The position numbers were made by a program, and so were the translations under genes. Below are positions 14,960-53,204 of a DNA stretch of 64,000 bases, in pieces; position 1 is the first letter of the stretch; each line of letters opens with the position of its first letter. The DNA is taken from positions 1 through 64,000 of the forward strand of contig JAFOOX010000037.1 of NCBI GenBank assembly GCA_017425245.1, written 5' to 3'. The notes below the pieces were generated by a model, which ran no database searches, was not told where the DNA came from, and worked only from the letters and a program-made list of their open reading frames with translations. Origin of the DNA: Gammaproteobacteria bacterium. GTDB taxonomy: Bacteria; Pseudomonadota; Gammaproteobacteria; Enterobacterales; Neiellaceae.

Positions 14960-15024
14960 AAGAGGGGCTCGCAAAGTGCTGGCAAGGGCTGGACTTGAGG
15001 GCAGCTTGCCGGTCACTCTAGGCA

Positions 15025-15057
15025 CTGTCAATCACGCAGTAGCACCAAGGTTTACCG
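15025..15057. promoter_or_regulatory. Putative BirA (biotin repressor) operator between bioB and bioA
   Basis: The known BirA operator is TTGTAAACC, a 14-16 nt spacer, then GGTTTACAA. Here 15049-15057 reads GGTTTACCG (7 of 9 bases) and 15025-15033 reads CTGTCAATC (6 of 9), separated by 15 nt. The right half overlaps the presumed bioA ribosome site and lies just before its GTG. The position in the divergent bioB/bioA gap matches that in Escherichia coli, which supports the call despite the imperfect left half. Confidence 0.55.
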
Positions 15058-15059
15058 CT

Positions 15060-16352
15060 GTGCATTTTATCGACACCACCAGCGCCCTCGCCTTCGACCG
15101 CAACCACCTGTGGCACCCCTATACCAGCATGAGCCAGCCGCTGCCGGTCTATCCGGTGGTGGCTGCCAGCGGCTGCGAACTGCAGCTGGCCGATGGCCGG
15201 CTACTGGTTGATGGCATGAGCAGCTGGTGGGCCAGCATCCACGGCTACAACGTCGCTGAGCTGAACGCCGCCATCCATGAGCAGCTGGGCCAGATGAGCC
15301 ATGTGATGTTTGGCGGCATCACCCACCCCCCGGCGGTGGCTTTGGGCCAGCGGCTTCGCGCCCTGCTGCCGCCGGCGCTGGAGTGCATCTTTCTGGCTGA
15401 TACCGGCTCGGTGGCGGTGGAAGTGGCGGTGAAGATGGCGCTGCAATACTGGCAAGGGGCAGGCCAGCCCCAGCGTCACAAGCTGCTGGCGCTGCGCCGT
15501 GGTTATCACGGCGATACCTGTGGCGCCATGGCGCTGTGCGATCCGGAAACCGGCATGCACAGTCTGTTTGCCGGGGTGCTGCCCAACCACTATTTTGCCC
15601 CGGCGCCGCAGTGCCGCTTCGATGGCCCCTACGACGGCAGCGACTTTGCCGCCTTCAAAGCCGAGTTTCTGGCCCATGAACATGAGCTGGCAGCGGTGAT
15701 CCTTGAGCCGATCGTGCAGGGCGCCGGCGGCATGCGCCTCTACCACCCGCAGTATCTGGCCGATGTCGCCGCCCTGTGCCGCGACCATGAGGTGCTGCTG
15801 ATCGCCGATGAGATCGCTACCGGCTTTGGCCGCAGCGGCAAGCTGCTGGCCTGCGACCACGCGGGCGTAGTGCCCGACATTCTGTGCCTGGGTAAAGCAC
15901 TGACCGGCGGTTACCTGACCCTGGCCGCCACCATCACCAGTCGCCATGTCGCAGAAACCATCAGCCAGAGCGCGGCCGGGGTGTTTATGCACGGCCCCAC
16001 CTTTATGGGCAACCCGCTGGCCTGCGCCGTGGCCTGTGCCAGCATCGATCTGCTGCTGGCCAGCCCCTGGCAGCAACGGGTGGCCGCTATCGAGGCAGGG
16101 TTAAGAGCCGGCCTCGAACCCTGTCGCCAGCTGCCCGGCGTGGCCGAGGTGCGGGTGCTGGGGGCCATTGGTGTGGTGGAGATGAGTGAGCCGGTCGATG
16201 TAGCCACGCTGCAGCGCCAGTTTGTCGAACTGGGGGTGTGGATCCGCCCCTTCGGCCGCCTGATCTACCTGATGCCACCCTTTGTGATCCGCCCCGACCA
16301 GTTGGCCTGCTTATGTGGCGCAGTGGTCACGGTACTCACCCCTGAAGCATAA
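15060..16352 (+). CDS. bioA: Adenosylmethionine-8-amino-7-oxononanoate aminotransferase BioA
   Basis: A 430-residue class III PLP aminotransferase that makes 7,8-diaminopelargonate using SAM as amino donor. Recognisable segments are DRNHLWHPYTSM at the N-terminus, DGMSSWWASIHGYN, RRGYHGDT, LIADEIATGFGRSGK and the PLP lysine in CLGKALTGGYLTLA. The frame is open back into bioB, but the protein start fits a GTG at 15060 (MHFIDTTSAL) with AAGG 9 nt upstream. That start gives the normal family length. It converges on the kinase gene downstream. Confidence 0.95.
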   Translation: MHFIDTTSALAFDRNHLWHPYTSMSQPLPVYPVVAASGCELQLADGRLLVDGMSSWWASIHGYNVAELNAAIHEQLGQMSHVMFGGITHPPAVALGQRLRALLPPALECIFLADTGSVAVEVAVKMALQYWQGAGQPQRHKLLALRRGYHGDTCGAMALCDPETGMHSLFAGVLPNHYFAPAPQCRFDGPYDGSDFAAFKAEFLAHEHELAAVILEPIVQGAGGMRLYHPQYLADVAALCRDHEVLLIADEIATGFGRSGKLLACDHAGVVPDILCLGKALTGGYLTLAATITSRHVAETISQSAAGVFMHGPTFMGNPLACAVACASIDLLLASPWQQRVAAIEAGLRAGLEPCRQLPGVAEVRVLGAIGVVEMSEPVDVATLQRQFVELGVWIRPFGRLIYLMPPFVIRPDQLACLCGAVVTVLTPEA

Positions 16353-16366
16353 GTGGCTAGCCGGCG

Positions 16367-16819
16367 TTAAGGTACGTAGCGCTTGGCCATTGCCTCAATA
16401 GTGCCGGCATCGACCCCATGCAGGTTGCGGGCGACACACAAGGCGCGGTGAGCGGGATCGGTCGGCTGGCCGATGGTCAGCAGTCGCAGCCGATACCCTG
16501 CGCTTTCGGCCATGGCCGCATAGGGCTGCCATTCGCGCTTCTCCAGGTTGGTGTTGGCGCAGATCAGCAGTGGCAGCCGCTGGCCGCAAAGGTCGGCAAA
16601 GCGCTGGCGATTCCAGGCATGAGCCTCGCCCAGCCGCTGCGGGTCAAAGTAGTAGCCGGCTGCGGTCTCGAAGAAATCATCGGTGGTACAGACGCCGGCG
16701 TAGCGCAATGGCGCGGCCAGCAACGGCAGGAAGCGGTCGCACAGGCGCCGAGCAAAATGACTCTTTCCAGCGCCGGGCAGACCACGCAAGATCAGGGCTT
16801 GGGGGCGGAGCCAGGCCAC
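16367..16819 (-). CDS. Small AAA_33-type P-loop kinase-like protein
   Basis: A 150-residue ATP-binding protein with Walker A LRGLPGAGKSHFARRL at residues 12-27 and a TTDDFF segment. LLICANTNLEKREWQPYAAMAESAGYRL resembles the region of polynucleotide-kinase-like and N4BP2-like proteins where the substrate lid begins. It begins with GTG 3 nt after the upstream stop, so it probably shares a transcript with the cysG-like gene and dcd. The substrate is unknown; kinases of this kind act on nucleic acid ends, nucleosides or small metabolites. Confidence 0.75.
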   Translation of the reverse strand: MAWLRPQALILRGLPGAGKSHFARRLCDRFLPLLAAPLRYAGVCTTDDFFETAAGYYFDPQRLGEAHAWNRQRFADLCGQRLPLLICANTNLEKREWQPYAAMAESAGYRLRLLTIGQPTDPAHRALCVARNLHGVDAGTIEAMAKRYVP

Positions 16820-16822
16820 GAC

Positions 16823-17725
16823 TCAGCTGCCGCAGCGGTGAGGCTGCCAGCCACGCTGACTGGCCAGCTCGGCCAGTGCGGCCAGCGCATCGCCATTGCC
16901 AATGGCCAGGGCCACTTCCGCCCCATGAGGCAAAGGCAGCAAAGCGGGTATGGACTCGATGATTGCGTCGCGCCGACAGAGATCCAGCAGCCGCTGATCA
17001 ACATCCCCCAGCAGCCACACCCGCTCCGCCTGCTGCAGCTGGCGCAGTTGGCGCAGACTGAGCTGATCGGTACTCTCTGGCGGCTCTAACAACCATAAGC
17101 GCGGTTGATCATCCTGGCTGAGGGCCTGATGCAGCGCCTGCTCGGCATCCACCTCGCCGTGCCAGGCCGCGTCGAAAAAGCGCTCCCACACCCGGCGCCG
17201 CTGATTGAGGTCGAGCAACTGCTGCTTGAGCCGCGGCCGCTCGCGTTCGGCCACAGTTATGAAGGCGGTCAGCGCCTCCGGGATCACCCCTTCCAGCAGG
17301 GTGCGCAGCTTGCGCGCCAGTACCGGCGCACTGCCACCCGTGGTAAAGGCCAGTTGCAACGATCCGCGCACCACCCGTGCCGGAAAGGCCACATTACCGA
17401 GATTGGCATCGCTAACCACATTGACCAGCAAACGGCGGCGACGGGCACCATAGGCGATCTGCTCGTTAACCTGGCGATCCGGGGTGGCGGCGATCACCAG
17501 CGCCCAGGGCTCCTCCAGCTGCTCGTCGGCAAAGCGAGTAGGAAAGTGACGCAAACGGCCAGCATCCGCCCAGCCATCCACCTGCACCGCCAGTTTGGGA
17601 GCGACCACGGTCACCGCCGCCCCCTCCTGAAGCAGTTCGCCGATACGGCGCTGGGCCACCTCGCCCCCGCCAACCACCAGCACCGGCGCCCCAGCCAGAT
17701 CGATAATCAGCGGCAGGCCGGCCAT
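16823..17725 (-). CDS. CysG-like siroheme synthase N-half with a vestigial methyltransferase tail
   Basis: A 300-residue protein. Residues 1-150 match the precorrin-2 dehydrogenase / ferrochelatase half of CysG: VLVVGGGEVAQRR, VIAATPDRQVNEQI, VNVVSDANLG and TTGGSAPVLARKLRTLLEG. Residues 160-200 match the linker helices (RRRVWERFFDAAWHG). Residues 207-255 still follow the start of CysG's uroporphyrinogen methyltransferase domain: LSLRQLRQLQQAERVWLLGD and LLDLCRRDA correspond to CysG's LTLKGLQQIQQADVVVYDR and NLVRRDA. The glycine-rich SAM loop is gone and the protein ends there, where true CysG is about 460 residues. The Asp normally after NVV is Ser, with Asp next. It may be an NAD-dependent dehydrogenase for siroheme only. 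Confidence 0.8.
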   Translation of the reverse strand: MAGLPLIIDLAGAPVLVVGGGEVAQRRIGELLQEGAAVTVVAPKLAVQVDGWADAGRLRHFPTRFADEQLEEPWALVIAATPDRQVNEQIAYGARRRRLLVNVVSDANLGNVAFPARVVRGSLQLAFTTGGSAPVLARKLRTLLEGVIPEALTAFITVAERERPRLKQQLLDLNQRRRVWERFFDAAWHGEVDAEQALHQALSQDDQPRLWLLEPPESTDQLSLRQLRQLQQAERVWLLGDVDQRLLDLCRRDAIIESIPALLPLPHGAEVALAIGNGDALAALAELASQRGWQPHRCGS

Positions 17726-17727
17726 GC

Positions 17728-18312
17728 TCAGCGATCCTGACTGATGCGACTGGCCACTGCGCTCTGCTGGTCACGGTACTTGGCATCGTCACGCTTGTTG
17801 TACGGGCGCGCCGCCGGGGTGGTCAGAGTTTCGAAGTTAAGAGCGCCAATCTTCATCTTCGGCCGTAACGCTAACGGTAGTTTGCCGCTGTTGATGAACT
17901 CCAGCACGATCCGGCCAGACCAGCCCGGATCGATGCGATGGGCGGTGACATGGACCATCAGCCCGAGACGGGCCAGCGATGAGCGGCCATCCAGCCAGCC
18001 GACGATGTCGTCAGGCAGGGTCACCGACTCCAGCGTCACGGCCAGCGCCAATTCGCCAGGGTGAAGAAAGAAGGCTTCGCCGTCGGGGATGTAGATCTCG
18101 TCGCTCATCACCCGGTCCAGTGCCAGCTGCACCTCTTCGCGCGGGCCGGAGAGATCGATGAAGGGGGCAGTGTGGTCGTTGAACACCCGGAAGGTGTTGC
18201 CCAGACGCACGTCAACGCTGACGCCGCTGATGAAATCCTGAGCCGGTGGTGGATCTATGGCGATCCGCCCTTCGGCCAGAAAGCGCTCGATATCAATGTC
18301 ACTCAAACGCAT
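17728..18312 (-). CDS. dcd: dCTP deaminase
   Basis: A 194-residue trimeric enzyme that deaminates dCTP to dUTP, the main source of dUMP for thymidylate in gammaproteobacteria. It shows [12 protein letters not shown] at the start, [23 protein letters not shown] with the conserved Arg-Ser-Ser, [12 protein letters not shown] with the catalytic-region residues, and the C-terminal [13 protein letters not shown] that closes over the nucleotide. It lies 20 bp after apbC and 2 bp before the cysG-like gene, suggesting one transcript. Confidence 0.97.
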
Positions 18313-18332
18313 GGATCAGGTTCCTGTAGTCG

Positions 18333-19364
18333 TTAATCAATAGCGATCGCCAAGGTGCTGGCAGCGGCTTGCTGCTGCCACAACGCCAGGCCAACGCGCT
18401 GGCCAATGGTGCGATAGATGCGGCTGACCGGGTGGTCTGGATCACGGGCGACAGTGGGCAGACCACCATCGGCGTCGGCACGGATGGTCGGATCAAGGGG
18501 GATCTGGCCCAGTACCGGCACCCCGCACTCCGCCGCCAGCCGGGCGCCGCCGGCATCGCCGAAGATGGCGCTGGCGGTGCCGCAATGGCCGCAGACGAAG
18601 TAGCTCATGTTCTCGACCACGCCGCATACCGGCACATGGACTTTGGTAAACATCGCCACTCCACGGCGGGCATCGGCCAGCGCCAGATTCTGCGGTGTGG
18701 TTACCACCACCGCGGTGCTGACCGGCACCGCCTGGGCCAGGGTCAGCGGGATATCGCCAGTGCCGGGCGGCAGATCCACCACCAGATAGTCGAGCTCTGG
18801 CCACAGGGTGTCGTTGAACAGCTGCTTGAGCGCGGCTGAGGCCATAGGCCCCCGCCACACCGCCGCTTCCTGCGGGTCCATGAGAAAACCCAGGGAGTTA
18901 CAGGCCAGGCCATGGGCATACAGCGGCGCCATCAAGGTGCCGTCGGGCGAATGTACGCGCTCGTCACTCTTGCCCACCATGATCGGCAATGACGGGCCAT
19001 AGATATCGGCATCAAGCAGGCCGACCCGAGCCCCTTCGGCCTTGAGCGCCAGCGCCAGGTTGACAGCGGTGGCCGATTTGCCCACCCCGCCCTTGCCACT
19101 GGCAACGGCAATGATGGCGCGCACCGGGCGCAACCGCTCGGTGGCCCGGCCATCAACACAGGCGGGAGCATGACTGCGCACCGCCACTGTGGCCAAACCG
19201 GCCGCATCAAGGCGACTGCGCAACTCCGCCACCAGCGCCTGGTTGAAATAGCCGAGGGTAATGCACTCGGAACTGACGGTCAGCGGCAAGGCAGTCAGCG
19301 GCAAACCCGACAGCGGCTCAGTCACCGTTGCCAGCAGGGCCTGCAGCTGTGAGAGGCGATCCAT
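18333..19364 (-). CDS. apbC: Iron-sulfur cluster carrier ATPase ApbC/Mrp
   Basis: A 343-residue Mrp/NBP35-family P-loop ATPase that carries Fe-S clusters to apoproteins. There is a short N-terminal DUF59-like segment and a deviant Walker A AVASGKGGVGKSATAVNLAL near residue 105. DADIYGPSLPIM follows, then LVVDLPPGTGDIP. The cluster-binding CxxC is present as FVCGHCG. It lies upstream of dcd. In many relatives metG is its divergent neighbour; here that place is taken by the palindrome-rich intergenic block. Confidence 0.95.
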   Translation of the reverse strand: MDRLSQLQALLATVTEPLSGLPLTALPLTVSSECITLGYFNQALVAELRSRLDAAGLATVAVRSHAPACVDGRATERLRPVRAIIAVASGKGGVGKSATAVNLALALKAEGARVGLLDADIYGPSLPIMVGKSDERVHSPDGTLMAPLYAHGLACNSLGFLMDPQEAAVWRGPMASAALKQLFNDTLWPELDYLVVDLPPGTGDIPLTLAQAVPVSTAVVVTTPQNLALADARRGVAMFTKVHVPVCGVVENMSYFVCGHCGTASAIFGDAGGARLAAECGVPVLGQIPLDPTIRADADGGLPTVARDPDHPVSRIYRTIGQRVGLALWQQQAAASTLAIAID

Positions 19365-19439
19365 GGCATTACCTAACAGGGAAAAACGGCGGCCAGTCTA
19401 GCACAACAGCGGCTTGCCCTCTGCGCTAGGCAAGCGGGT

Positions 19440-19469
19440 AACACATTGGTATGGCTAGACCAATGTGTT
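19440..19469. repeat. Perfect 11-bp inverted repeat upstream of apbC
   Basis: AACACATTGGT (19440-19450) and ACCAATGTGTT (19459-19469) are exact reverse complements separated by 8 nt. No T-run follows on either strand, so this reads as an operator for a dimeric regulator rather than a terminator. It lies 76 bp upstream of the apbC start and 83 bp upstream of the mini-ORF. Confidence 0.7.
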
Positions 19470-19473
19470 GCCT

Positions 19474-19495
19474 ACATGTGACGCACGTCACATGT
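19474..19495. promoter_or_regulatory. 22-bp perfect palindrome matching the CRP site consensus
   Basis: ACATGTGACG and CGTCACATGT (19474-19483 and 19486-19495) are exact reverse complements around CA. The core TGTGA-CGCACG-TCACA (19477-19492) equals the CRP consensus TGTGA-N6-TCACA at all ten positions. It lies 4 bp from the neighbouring palindrome. The centre is about 67 bp upstream of the mini-ORF start and 120 bp upstream of apbC. Other regulators of the CRP/FNR family could also bind. Confidence 0.6.
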
Positions 19496-19551
19496 TATTG
19501 ATCGATTCTGTTCGGCAACGCTTTCCCTACCACAGCCAAGGAATTGCCATT

Positions 19552-19635
19552 ATGCGAGCCATTCTTGCGTCTCTTGTGCTGCTTTTCAGCTCGCTGGCTG
19601 TTGCCGTCAACAGCAGTCACATGCCGGTCAACTGA
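19552..19635 (+). CDS. Putative 27-residue small protein with a signal-peptide-like sequence
   Basis: An ATG with AAGGA 9 nt upstream opens a 27-codon frame whose product (MRAILASLVLLFSSLAVAV, then NSSHMPVN) is almost wholly a hydrophobic signal-like or membrane segment. It is framed by a CRP-like palindrome upstream and a perfect inverted repeat over its stop codon, so it looks like a complete small transcription unit. I know no family match. Alternatives are a leader peptide, a small membrane protein, or an sRNA with a chance ORF. Confidence 0.4.
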   Translation: MRAILASLVLLFSSLAVAVNSSHMPVN

Positions 19636-19642
19636 CCGGCAT
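19621..19642. repeat. Perfect 10-bp inverted repeat over the mini-ORF stop
   Basis: ATGCCGGTCA and TGACCGGCAT are exact reverse complements separated by AC, giving a 22-bp palindrome. It covers the last codons and stop of the mini-ORF and lies 18 bp beyond the end of the converging membrane-protein gene. There is no clear T-run, so if it ends transcription it does so poorly; it may instead stabilise a 3' end or bind a regulator. Confidence 0.6.
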
Positions 19643-19660
19643 TGTGATCCGGATGTCTGG

Positions 19661-20752
19661 CTAGTTACGACGATAGCGCCACAGTGCCGCCAGGGCCACC
19701 AGCAGGCCAATGACCGCAATGCTGGCCACCAACCCCCAGCGCCGCGACTGCAGTCGCTGCGGATAGTGGGCATTGCCAGCCAGCAACATGCGGCTGAGCT
19801 GCTGCTCCCGCTGTCCCAGCTGCTGTGCCTCCTGCAGCTGAGCCAAAGCCTCCGCCACAGGTGCAGCCAGCGCCGTTTGCTCACAGGCTCCTTTGGGCCG
19901 ACCTGGCGATGGCTGAATCTCAGGCCAGCGCCAGGGCAGCGGATGACCGCGCCGCCAGCTGGCCATTAACATATGGCGATCCCACTGCAGTTCCCGCTCT
20001 AGACGGCGACTGACAGCCAACATCCGTTGTTGGCTGGCCAAACAGCTAGCCTTTTGCCGTTCGACCTGCAGGCGCTGGCGCAACAACTCAGCGGCACTGC
20101 CCAGCATCCAACCGTAGTCACGCTTTACCGCCTGATAGCGATCAGCGATCCGGGCAATACTGGCGGTACAACCGCGGGGCACCGCCGGCCACAGAGATTC
20201 CAGCGCCTGCTGTTCACCGCTGACCCGGTCGATGGCGTTGAGCAGCATTTCAACATCGTCGCTCACGGCAGTTTCATCGAACGCTTTAGCCCTGGCCTCA
20301 AGTGCAGCGACGGCAGCCTCCGCCGCCGCAGCGCTTTGTTCGCAACGCCGGGTTGCCAACTGCGGTGAGGTGCGGGCAGCGGTGCCCTTGCTACGGCTGC
20401 CCCCACCCATGCGCTGGGCGCGACCGACGTTATCCACCGAGCCATCCCACAGCCGGTAGTTGCCGGCATACAGCTGCTGCAACTCGGCACAACCGGGCGC
20501 GGCGCGGCTGGCGCAACCCCGCTGGTGGTAATCGCGAATAGCGCGGTTGACCAACAGCCCTGAATCAACGCACATCTGCCAAGCCATCAGATTCCAGTTT
20601 TCGATCGGCTGGCAGTAGCGGCGCAACACCTCACGGGCGTTGCCCTCGGCCACCGGCGAACCTATACCAGGCAAACGGGTCGGCACCGCCGGACTGGCCA
20701 GTGCCACAGCGCTGGCCAGCATCAACAGCAGTACACCAACCATCCTGACCAT
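19661..20752 (-). CDS. Hypothetical secreted, C-terminally membrane-anchored protein coupled to ndh
   Basis: A 363-residue protein of unknown family. Residues 1-20 form a signal peptide (VGVLLLMLASAVALA). The mature part has several cysteines (YCQPIENWN, QMCVDSG, RGCASRAAPGC) and Ala/Glu/Gln-rich helices likely to form coiled coils (about 120-330). Residues about 338-358 are a single membrane helix followed by RYRRN, so most of the protein should sit in the periplasm. Its ATG overlaps the ndh stop (TAATG), so its translation is coupled to that of NADH dehydrogenase II. The E. coli locus has ycfJ at this place, but I see no resemblance to it. Function unknown; a link to the respiratory chain is only contextual. 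Confidence 0.75.
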   Translation of the reverse strand: MVRMVGVLLLMLASAVALASPAVPTRLPGIGSPVAEGNAREVLRRYCQPIENWNLMAWQMCVDSGLLVNRAIRDYHQRGCASRAAPGCAELQQLYAGNYRLWDGSVDNVGRAQRMGGGSRSKGTAARTSPQLATRRCEQSAAAAEAAVAALEARAKAFDETAVSDDVEMLLNAIDRVSGEQQALESLWPAVPRGCTASIARIADRYQAVKRDYGWMLGSAAELLRQRLQVERQKASCLASQQRMLAVSRRLERELQWDRHMLMASWRRGHPLPWRWPEIQPSPGRPKGACEQTALAAPVAEALAQLQEAQQLGQREQQLSRMLLAGNAHYPQRLQSRRWGLVASIAVIGLLVALAALWRYRRN

Positions 20753-22047
20753 TAATGCAGCTTGAGAGTCGGGCGCAGCGCGCGGTTAAGACCACCAACC
20801 AGCATCATCAACCCGGTTTTGAAGTAACCATGCAGGGCGATCTGGTGCATGCGGTAAAGCGACACATAGACAAAGCGGGCAAGCCGACCCTCGATCATCA
20901 TCGAACCGCGGGTGAGGTTGCCCATCAGGCTGCCCACCGTGGAGTACTTGGAGAGTGACACCAACGAGCCGTGATCCTTGTAGACATAGGCCTCAAGCGG
21001 ACGCCCCTCAATCAGGGCGACGATATTGCGATAAGCCTGGGTGGCCATCTGGTGAGCAGCCTGAGCGCGCGGCGGCACGAAGCCACCACTCGGCTGCGGG
21101 CAGCTGGCGCAGTCGCCGATGGCAAAAATGTGAGGATCGCGGCTAGTCTGCAAGGTTGGCAGCACCACCAGCTGGTTGATCCGGCTCGATTCGAGGCCAC
21201 CGATCTCTCGCAGGAAGTCGGGCGCCTTAATACCCGCCGCCCACACCATCAGGCAGGCCGGGATCAGTTCACCACTCTTGGTCATCAGCCCGTCACTGCG
21301 CGCTTCAGTCACCATGGTGGCGGTACGCACCTGCACCCCCAGCTCGGTCAGTTCCTTGTGGGCACTGGCCGAAATCCGCTCCGGCAGCGCCGGCAGGATC
21401 CGCGGGCCCGCCTCCACCAGCGTCACCCGCAGCCGCTCGCGGCCGATGCGGGCAAAGCCATAGGAGGAGAGCACCTCAGCCGCCTTGTGCAACTCGGCCG
21501 ACAGCTCAACGCCGGTAGCACCGCCGCCAACGATGGCGATATCGATGTTGCCCTGATCGCCTTTGTTGTTAAGGGCCAGAAAGGCATTCATCAGCTCTTT
21601 GTGAAAGCGTTCCGCCTGTTCCGGGGCATCCAGGAAGATGCAGTGATCCCGTACCCCGGTGGTATTGAAGTCGTTGGAGATACTGCCAATGGCTAGCACC
21701 AGATAGTCGTAGGGCAGATGGCGCTCGGCGACGATCTGCTGACCGGCGTCATCAACAATGGGGGCAAGCGTGATGCTTTTGGCTTCGCGGTTGATGTTGC
21801 TGAGGCTACCCAGCTGAAACTCGAAATGGTGGTTGAATGCCTGAGCGCGGTAGCTGAGGGAATCGATACCGGCATCAAGAGAACCAGTAGCTACCTCATG
21901 CAGCAAGGGCTTCCACAGATGGGTCGATTTGCGATCAACCAAGGTAACGCTGGCCCAGCCCTTACGCCCCAGTTTGTCGCCCAGCCGGGTGGCCAATTCC
22001 AACCCGCCGGCTCCGCCGCCGACCACAATAATGCGCGTCTTGGTCAT
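20752..22047 (-). CDS. ndh: Type II NADH:quinone oxidoreductase
   Basis: A 431-residue single-subunit, non-proton-pumping NADH dehydrogenase attached to the inner face of the membrane. It shows the FAD-binding [18 protein letters not shown] at the N-terminus, [16 protein letters not shown], the second nucleotide fold [17 protein letters not shown] near residue 170, and FAIGDCAS. The C-terminal amphipathic helices ([17 protein letters not shown]) provide membrane attachment. It lies 68 bp downstream of ycfP. Confidence 0.96.
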
Positions 22048-22115
22048 GATCTGCTCCGCTTAAATCGCATGACCGGCCGGCCAAAAGGAGCCCGCCGAAA
22101 AAGAAAAGATGGAAC

Positions 22116-22667
22116 TCAGGCAGTCACTGGCGCCAGCTTGAACGCCTTGATGCGTTGCAGATGCTGGGCAATCTGCTTGAACTTGTGGCCCTGAGTCTCA
22201 TCCCACACCACCTCATAGTACGGGTCAAGGGCATTGGCAGTTGGTTGCTGATCGGTGGTTTCATCGTTGCGGGAGAGAATAACCAGGCTGCGAGCGCGGT
22301 TTTTGGTGCGGAACTCACTGACACATTTGCTGGCGATGTCCGCATACTCCTCCGGCCGATCGATACGGCCGACCATGTTCAGCTCAGGATGCAGGTTGGG
22401 ATTGAACAGCACCGATTTGATGCCCGCGAGAAAACCGATTCGTTCAGACCAGTAACCGCCCAGCCCCACGCCACAGATCAGTGGGCAGGCATCAGTGCTG
22501 CTTTCCAGATTGCGCTGCACCTCCTTGAGCAGGTGGCTCAAGTCATGGCGCGGATGAAGAGTGCTGTAGGTTACCGCCCGCACGTCCGGGTCGATGAACT
22601 TGAGTTGCAGCACTTTTTCGTGATTGCCGGGACTGGTGGCATCAAAGCCATGAAGGTAGATGATCAT
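22116..22667 (-). CDS. ycfP: YcfP-family alpha/beta-hydrolase-like protein (UPF0227)
   Basis: A 183-residue protein that begins [20 protein letters not shown], typical of YcfP. The nucleophile-elbow-like [14 protein letters not shown] has Gly where serine esterases have Ser, so it may not be a hydrolase. The ATG at 22667 gives the family length of about 180; the frame continues 16 residues upstream without support. The order nagZ-ycfP-ndh is the same as in E. coli. Function is unknown. Confidence 0.9.
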
Positions 22668-22780
22668 CCGCTGCTCCGCTTGCGTCTGTCGGCCATGGCC
22701 GCGTGCATCTTTCAACCGCCTGAATATGCCCCGGCATGCAGCCGGAGCTAAGCGCCCAAGCTGCTGACCGGGGTCGGCCG

Positions 22781-23779
22781 TTAGCCGGCGTGAAGTATAG
22801 CCTGAGCCGCCTGCCAGCGGCGATCACTGCGCAGAGTCTTCAAGCCCTCCGCTCGGGCGCCGCCCAGCGCCGCCAATTGGGGCCGAACCGGAGCAGGCGC
22901 TCCCCCCACCCACTCCACCACCTGCTCAGCAGCCTTACGATCATTGCATACCAGCAGCATGTCGCAGCCGGCGTCCAGTGCCGCTGCAGCTCGCTCGGTA
23001 ACGGAGCCAGCCACATGGGCGCCGGCCATGCACAGATCGTCAGAGAAGATCACCCCGTCAAAGGCCAGTTCACGGCGCAGTATCTGCTGCAGCCACAGTG
23101 GCGAAAAACCAGCCGGACTGTCATCCACCGCCGAATAGATCACGTGGGCCGGCATGACAGCCGCCAACAGTTGCTCCGCCATCAGCTGGCGAAACACCTC
23201 GAGATCGAGCTGGCGGATCTCAGCCTCGCTGCGGCGATCCACCGGGATGGCAATATGCGAGTCTTCACGCACGCTGCCATGACCCGGAAAGTGCTTACCG
23301 GTCGCACCCATGCCCGCAGCCATCATCCCGTTGATAAAGGCCCGCAGCAGGGTAACCGCCGTTGCCACGTCAGCACTGAAGGCCCGATCGCCAATCACTT
23401 CACTGATGCCATGCAGGTCAACCACCGGCGCAAAACTGATGTCGATACCGCAAGCGCGCACTTCACTAGCCATCACGTAGGCGGCGGCCTCGGCCTGGCG
23501 GCAGCCCTCAGCCAGATCGCCACCGCGCTCGAAACTGCCCATGGCGGGGATCAGGGTGAAATCGCGGCGGAAGCGTTGCACCCGCCCCCCTTCGTGGTCG
23601 ACCGCCAACAACAGTTCAGGGCGTACCGCGCGCACTTCGCGTACCAGCTCCAGCAGCTGGGCTTCCTCGACAAAATTGCGGGTGAACAGGATAAGCCCAC
23701 CCACGGCCGGGTGGGCCAGCAACTCACGCTCCTCGGCCTGCAGGCTGGTGGCGTTCAGATCGAGCATTACCGGACCCAT
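22781..23779 (-). CDS. nagZ: Beta-N-acetylhexosaminidase NagZ
   Basis: A 332-residue cytoplasmic family 3 glycoside hydrolase that removes GlcNAc from anhydro-muropeptides during cell-wall recycling. It shows [10 protein letters not shown] at the start, [12 protein letters not shown], the GH3 signature [16 protein letters not shown] with the catalytic His, and the nucleophile region [16 protein letters not shown]. Its start overlaps the holB 3' end by 13 bp. In beta-lactamase-inducing bacteria its products feed AmpR signalling, though no ampR is in the window. Confidence 0.96.
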
Positions 23780-24687
23780 GGTGAAACTCCTGTGGCTGGG
23801 TGAGTCGCGCTGCGCTGGCGCAGTGGGGCCAGGTCAGCCAGCAATTGATGAATGGCCAGGGACAGGTTACGCCCCGGCAGTTGCAGAGCGGCAGCGGTCC
23901 GCGCCAGCAGTTCCAGAGCGGCACCGCGAGTGGCCAGCGGCCATTCGGCGGCGGCCAACTGCCAGAGCATGGCGGCCACCGCCGGCCCCTGCTTGATCAG
24001 CAGCTCGGCCAGTGCGCCGCTATGACGGCCATCACGCCGCCATTGCAAAAAGGCAGTGGCCACCGGCAGCCATTGGGGCTGGGCCAATAATGCCAGCACC
24101 ATCAGCGGCGCATGAGCGCACAGGGCTGACAGTTCAACCCCCTCGGCTGTGGTGGCGTCGATCAGAGCAAGCACGGCGCCGCTGTCAGGGTGCGGCAGCG
24201 GCCAGTGCTGGCAGCGGCTGATGATGGTGGCCAGCAGCGACTCACGGCGGGCCGCCGTCAACAGCAACAGGGTGCCGGAGGGCGGCTCTTCAAGGGTTTT
24301 GAGCAGAGCGTTGGCGGCGTTGTCGGTCATCTGCGCCGCGTTTTCGATCACCACCACCCGCCGCCCGCCCAGATAGGCGGTGGTCGCCAACTGCTGTTGC
24401 AGGCTGCGCACCTCGTCAATGCCGATGCGGCCGTTATCTTCAGGCTTGAGCAAACGAAAATCGGGATGGGTGCCAGCCGCCCACAGCTGGCAGCTCTGGC
24501 AACGACCGCAGGGTAGCTCATCATCGCCCTTACAGAGCCAGCGCTGCGCCAACTGGCGGGCCAACGCTACTTTGCCCACGCCGGTCGGGCCGGTCAGCAA
24601 CAGCCCTTGGGGCAAGCGTCCTTGACGCAGCTGCCCGAGCAGCTGCTGCCACAGCGGCGCCAACCACGGATAGCGTTCCAGACTCAT
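23767..24687 (-). CDS. holB: DNA polymerase III subunit delta'
   Basis: A 306-residue clamp-loader subunit. It shows the AAA+ P-loop [18 protein letters not shown], the zinc-binding cysteines in [20 protein letters not shown], and [17 protein letters not shown] with the SRC sensor ([11 protein letters not shown]). The ATG at 24687 overlaps the tmk stop in ATGA; an in-frame start 9 codons upstream is less likely. As usual for delta', the P-loop is present but the subunit is not expected to hydrolyse ATP. Confidence 0.93.
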
Positions 24688-40491: not shown

Positions 40492-40520
40492 AAAAAACGC
40501 CAGCTCGAGGCTGGCGTTTT
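40492..40520 (-). terminator. Intrinsic terminator after malK
   Basis: CGCCAGC and GCTGGCG (40498-40504 and 40510-40516) form a 7-bp stem, extended by A/T pairs, around TCGAG. On the minus strand it is followed by six T residues. It lies 24 bp after the malK stop and ends the mal operon. Confidence 0.85.
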
Positions 40521-48974: not shown

Positions 48975-49003
48975 AAAAACCCAGCCGAAACGCTGGGTTT
49001 TTT
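48975..49003. terminator. Bidirectional terminator between tRNA-Pro and uvrB
   Basis: CCCAGC and GCTGGG pair around CGAAAC, with five A on the left and six T on the right, so the hairpin has a T-run on both strands. It can end the tRNA transcript on the plus strand and uvrB on the minus strand, whose stop is 19 bp away. Confidence 0.9.
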
Positions 49004-53176: not shown

Positions 53177-53204
53177 AAAAAATGGGGCTGCAACTGCAGC
53201 CCCA
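53177..53204 (-). terminator. Intrinsic terminator of the sdh-suc operon after sucD
   Basis: TGGGGCTGCA and TGCAGCCCCA (53183-53192 and 53195-53204) form a perfect 10-bp stem; on the minus strand a run of six T follows (53182-53177, after the stem's last A/T pair). It lies about 20 bp after the sucD stop and ends the long TCA transcript. Confidence 0.88.

Follow-up and report, generated by a model that had tools for sequence, protein, structure and literature searches.

A palindrome cluster and 27-codon reading frame beside apbC as the likely remnant of a gene for a secreted starch- or glycogen-binding protein

Bacterial genes that have undergone internal deletion can persist as pseudogene remnants in which the promoter, start and terminator remain and most of the coding part is gone. 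The locus presented here, at positions 19440-19642 of a 64,000-nucleotide stretch of gammaproteobacterial DNA (the window), resembles such remnants in these respects but differs in that what is left forms a neat short open reading frame (ORF) with a signal peptide, and for that reason it looks like a small gene. The starch-binding domains (CBM20, CBM25, CBM48, CBM53; X25) of secreted alpha-amylases and pullulanases provide a second comparison. The gene at the same locus in a related genome likewise encodes a signal peptide followed by such domains, and several relatives of these proteins are encoded in the window's own genome; however, no catalytic domain of the related protein was matched by Pfam, and the window has lost all of the domains. 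With respect to CRP-activated promoters of enteric and related gammaproteobacteria, the window has a putative CRP site with a perfect TGTGA-N6-TCACA core, centred approximately 67 nt upstream of the start codon, and a CRP gene in its genome, although no -10 or -35 element is recognizable. Our main reading, to which we assign a probability of about 0.86, is that internal deletion of a gene encoding a secreted, probably starch- or glycogen-binding protein left this locus as its remnant.

Inspection of the sequence confirmed that all elements named in the original prediction are present. An inverted repeat, AACACATTGGT-N8-ACCAATGTGTT (19440-19469, no strand assigned), has a perfect 11-nt core and extends to 19437-19472 with 14-nt arms which are 93% complementary, and its stem folds. 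It is followed by a perfect 22-bp CRP-type palindrome (19474-19495, also without strand; 10-nt arms, 2-nt centre) containing the core TGTGACGCACGTCACA, a TGTGA-N6-TCACA at 19477-19492. On the + strand, the ribosome site AAGGA (19538-19542) precedes the ATG at 19552 of the 27-codon ORF MRAILASLVLLFSSLAVAVNSSHMPVN (19552-19635), and a further perfect 22-bp palindrome with 10-nt arms (19621-19642) covers its TGA stop (19633-19635). A count of perfect inverted repeats (arms of 10 nt or longer, gaps no wider than 12 nt) gave six for the 64-kb window, whereas 20 sequences simulated with a first-order Markov model averaged 0.7. Three of these six repeats fall in the 203 bp of this locus, and none of the 20 simulations placed two within 210 bp. 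The palindrome cluster at 19440-19642 exceeds chance. The other three repeats of the window are perfect palindromic hairpins with adjoining A/T runs (40494-40520, 48975-49002 and 53183-53204); judged by eye, two are like intrinsic terminators and the third (53183-53204) is terminator-like with an A-run on one side only, so that strong hairpins as such are not rare.

The comparison included a single other genome of the window's genus (G001; 60% complete, 450 contigs), the window's own genome (G000) being 89% complete in 74 contigs. In the window, the cluster lies between a divergent apbC/mrp gene encoding a NUBPL-type iron-sulfur carrier (18333-19364, - strand; PF10609, E 4.9e-96) and a convergent, conserved gene of 363 aa without a Pfam match (19661-20752, - strand), which is also found in G001. 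Contig C114 of G001 carries, as in the window, apbC, a gene on the + strand (window orientation) and the 363-aa gene, after which comes the 3' end of an NADH-dehydrogenase-like gene (ndh). The 363-aa gene matched at 80% in G001 and partially, at 36%, in genome G004, where approximately 218 kb of one contig separates it from apbC. When 40 genomes were searched with the intergenic DNA, matches were obtained only in G000 and G001, with window positions 19506-19617 aligning to the start of the G001 + strand gene (E 4.9e-28, 84%). The ORF agreed with the region encoding the N-terminus of the G001 protein at 53 of 66 nt (22 codons), and the translated products at 73% over 22 aa (E 0.0017), beyond which the G001 frame stays open. 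The short ORF is not conserved as a short ORF, as the start and signal peptide in G001 enter a long frame. A small membrane protein, leader or small RNA had been proposed for this site; none of these is conserved as a self-contained unit, given that in G001 a large secreted protein begins with this start and signal peptide, and among 295 genomes the only other convincing match was this long form in G001. With respect to the order as a whole, the 27-aa sequence gave matches at E<=10 in 35 of 295 genomes, and below 0.1 in G000 and G001 only. A small RNA as the main reading was rejected: Rfam gave no match at gathering thresholds over 15000-24000, and the conserved block belongs to a coding gene, of which it forms the 5' end. 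A search of a plasmid collection returned just apbC and ndh homologues from distant organisms, and a search of literature listings found nothing on this locus.

In G001 the promoter block and signal peptide lead into a secreted protein of approximately 375 codons, in which the stretch LYLRGSFNGW and a starch/glycogen-binding-like domain come after the signal peptide. Matches of this protein to CBM53 (E 1.7e-5, 25.5 bits; cut-off 27.6) and AMPK1_CBM (E 6.3e-5, 23.5 bits; cut-off 26.8), and of its C-terminal part to the CBM20-like family CBM_20 (E 0.005, 16.9 bits; cut-off 23.3), were all below the Pfam cut-offs, and its best PDB matches were to GH13 pullulanase and to AMPK beta glycogen-binding domains (E 3.5e-4 and weaker). 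These matches suggest that the product of the original gene was probably secreted and starch- or glycogen-binding. The G001 copy (L004:1421-2547, - strand) changes reading frame once, near L004:2160-2290, reflecting either an error of the draft assembly or a second, independent loss. The C-terminal 286 aa of the G001 protein were absent from G000 by whole-genome search and were found in G001 alone, both among the 40 genomes and among the 394 genomes of the order.

Following codon 22, the window has 5 nt, CACAT (19618-19622, + strand), and then the hairpin GCCGGTCAACTGACCGGC, where G001 has 1,089 nt between the same anchors (L004:2481-1393). The core of the window hairpin is identical to the G001 hairpin at 17 of 18 bases, compared with 12 of 18 for the next-best placement, and the G001 hairpin sits 28 nt past the stop of the long gene, in the corresponding place before the 363-aa gene. 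Both hairpins fold; downstream of them is TTTT in G001 and ATTGTG in the window, and neither copy passed a scan rule of 5 T in 8. The sequence ACAGCAG is present at both ends of the G001 segment, and the exact breakpoints are ambiguous by several nt. As aligned, each flank is homologous to one end of the longer gene that occupies this locus in G001, and the middle is missing. The TGA which ends the 27-codon ORF is part of the hairpin at 19621-19642, and this palindrome is most likely the terminator of the old gene, its T-run lost and the TGA supplied by chance.

In the proposed history, the original gene would have possessed a promoter, probably CRP-assisted, a ribosome site, a signal peptide, a mature part of approximately 350 codons that included carbohydrate-binding domains and, 28 nt beyond the stop, an intrinsic terminator. 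An internal deletion of approximately 1.08 kb in the window lineage would then have fused codon 22 to the terminator, leaving a residual frame of 27 codons, of which 22 would be original and the remainder made by the deletion, up to the fortuitous TGA of the hairpin. We infer an ancestral long form, activation of the promoter by CRP, and a stub that has no function. The direction of the change is argued from anatomy, since a signal peptide without cargo beside a terminator is more easily produced by loss; polarity rests on a single relative, and none of the 394 genomes of the order provides an outgroup with the long part. Plain decay of a dead locus would not predict the state of the CRP site and first repeat, which G001 has in less perfect form than the window. 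The cluster of signals is genuine and its explanation ordinary, namely the two ends of a gene that lost its middle, and the locus gives no support to a new small protein or RNA; the ORF is most likely an ordinary gene relic. The claim that the neighbours left this density unexplained no longer holds for two elements, the third palindrome and the ORF; for the CRP site, too, it plausibly fails. The locus illustrates how truncation can leave something that resembles a regulated gene for a small protein: the signal peptide survives together with the promoter site, ribosome site and terminator, and the terminator even provides the stop codon. Scans for small proteins in single genomes that use such cues would call this ORF, and the locus of one relative reveals it as a stub.

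The original prediction was right that a CRP-type site precedes a signal-peptide start which has a good ribosome site, and the genome also encodes a CRP orthologue (395 bits, above the family cut-off). Exact TGTGA-N6-TCACA occurs three times in the 3.45-Mb genome, 19477-19492 being one of the matches; the third exact core (L124:1379-1394) is outside long open frames. Given the CRP orthologue and the presence of only three exact cores, CRP control of the original gene through this putative site is plausible. At the same position G001 has TGCGATACAGATCACG (L004:2623-2608, - strand), in which 8 of the 10 determining bases and 2 of the 6 spacer bases are kept. Neutral drift would keep 8 of 10 with a probability of 0.09 to 0.38, so the conservation of the site does not prove CRP control. 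At fourfold sites, identity between the window and G001 was 54% for the 363-aa gene; the 5' part of apbC gave 70% and the 3' part of ndh 67%. Over the promoter and 5' untranslated block of the original gene (19505-19551, + strand), 42 of the 47 aligned bases agreed (binomial p 0.0016 relative to 70%), and a search by consensus found no sigma-70-like promoter in the window or the G001 copy.

The divergent intergenic region contains both upstream palindromes, which stand 76-131 nt ahead of the apbC start and could be operators of apbC unrelated to the ORF, a view which is compatible with the ORF as a stub. We consider it unlikely, as the sites have diverged to a neutral level even though apbC has been kept: the CRP palindrome is identical at 13 of 22 positions, and the first inverted repeat, at 19 of 36, is not kept as a repeat. 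In addition, a Mrp/ApbC gene is not known to be a CRP target. Within the first repeat, a TTGG..GACCA 18-mer was identical at 13 of 18 positions, compared with 6 of 18 in its flanks (Fisher p 0.02, a post hoc comparison); this better-kept core leaves room for a regulator, and the first repeat is a possible candidate operator.

The deletion could also be an artefact of assembly, the real chromosome carrying the full gene. The window's genome is a draft, the CRP site and palindromes are undecayed, and each end of the G001 segment has a short repeat (ACAGCAG) that might have been collapsed; however, assemblies do not as a rule collapse at repeats as short as 7 nt, no trace of the missing 286-aa part was found in G000, and the T-run and hairpin flanks of the window differ from those of G001 as if diverged. 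An artefact is in our judgment very improbable. Equally hard to sustain is retention of the stub as a functional gene, in which a CRP-controlled 27-aa preprotein would yield a short peptide (about VNSSHMPVN) through signal peptidase, or would itself act through its membrane segment. The ribosome site, start and hydrophobic core are intact, the CRP core is perfect, and by eye AVA precedes the likely cleavage point, but the short form is present in no relative, the last five codons derive from untranslated DNA and the terminator, and matches to the ORF elsewhere in the order are chance-like. The stronger version, that the deletion created a CRP-controlled, secreted 27-aa micro-preprotein which is now under selection, its stop and terminator sharing 22 bases, is highly improbable. 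Hardly credible, too, is an ancestral short form into which G001 gained its starch-binding part by insertion, since, although the long part is found in G001 only, this would require the in-frame arrival of exactly a mature secreted protein between signal peptide and terminator, and no transposon gene was seen among the frames of the G001 segment.

In the window's genome, starch-binding-like stretches at E<=1 numbered 24, the last being the window ORF itself. By Pfam, five of six starch-binding or neighbouring starch genes contained an alpha-amylase catalytic domain and one contained CBM25. We infer that the lost protein belonged with this starch-degrading set; a CRP-controlled starch-binding protein fits the biology of an organism whose genome is rich in related starch-degrading proteins. 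Within 350 nt upstream of eight starch-related genes, no second TTGGT-N8-ACCAA was found with up to two mismatches, and shared regulation was rejected, no common design being seen in the eight regions. The other exact ATTGGT-N8-ACCAAT of the genome is inside the coding part of an alpha-amylase gene and was attributed to chance. There are also four sites with one mismatch, and the two of them that were examined are both inside open frames. CRP-like sites with up to two mismatches were located upstream of two of the eight genes, at -241 to -326, where the rate in the window itself would predict approximately 0.08 per 350 nt. The window's genome also encodes, at L116, L117, L118, L119 and L120, a rich set of secreted proteins of alpha-amylase type that carry starch-binding modules and PKD domains.
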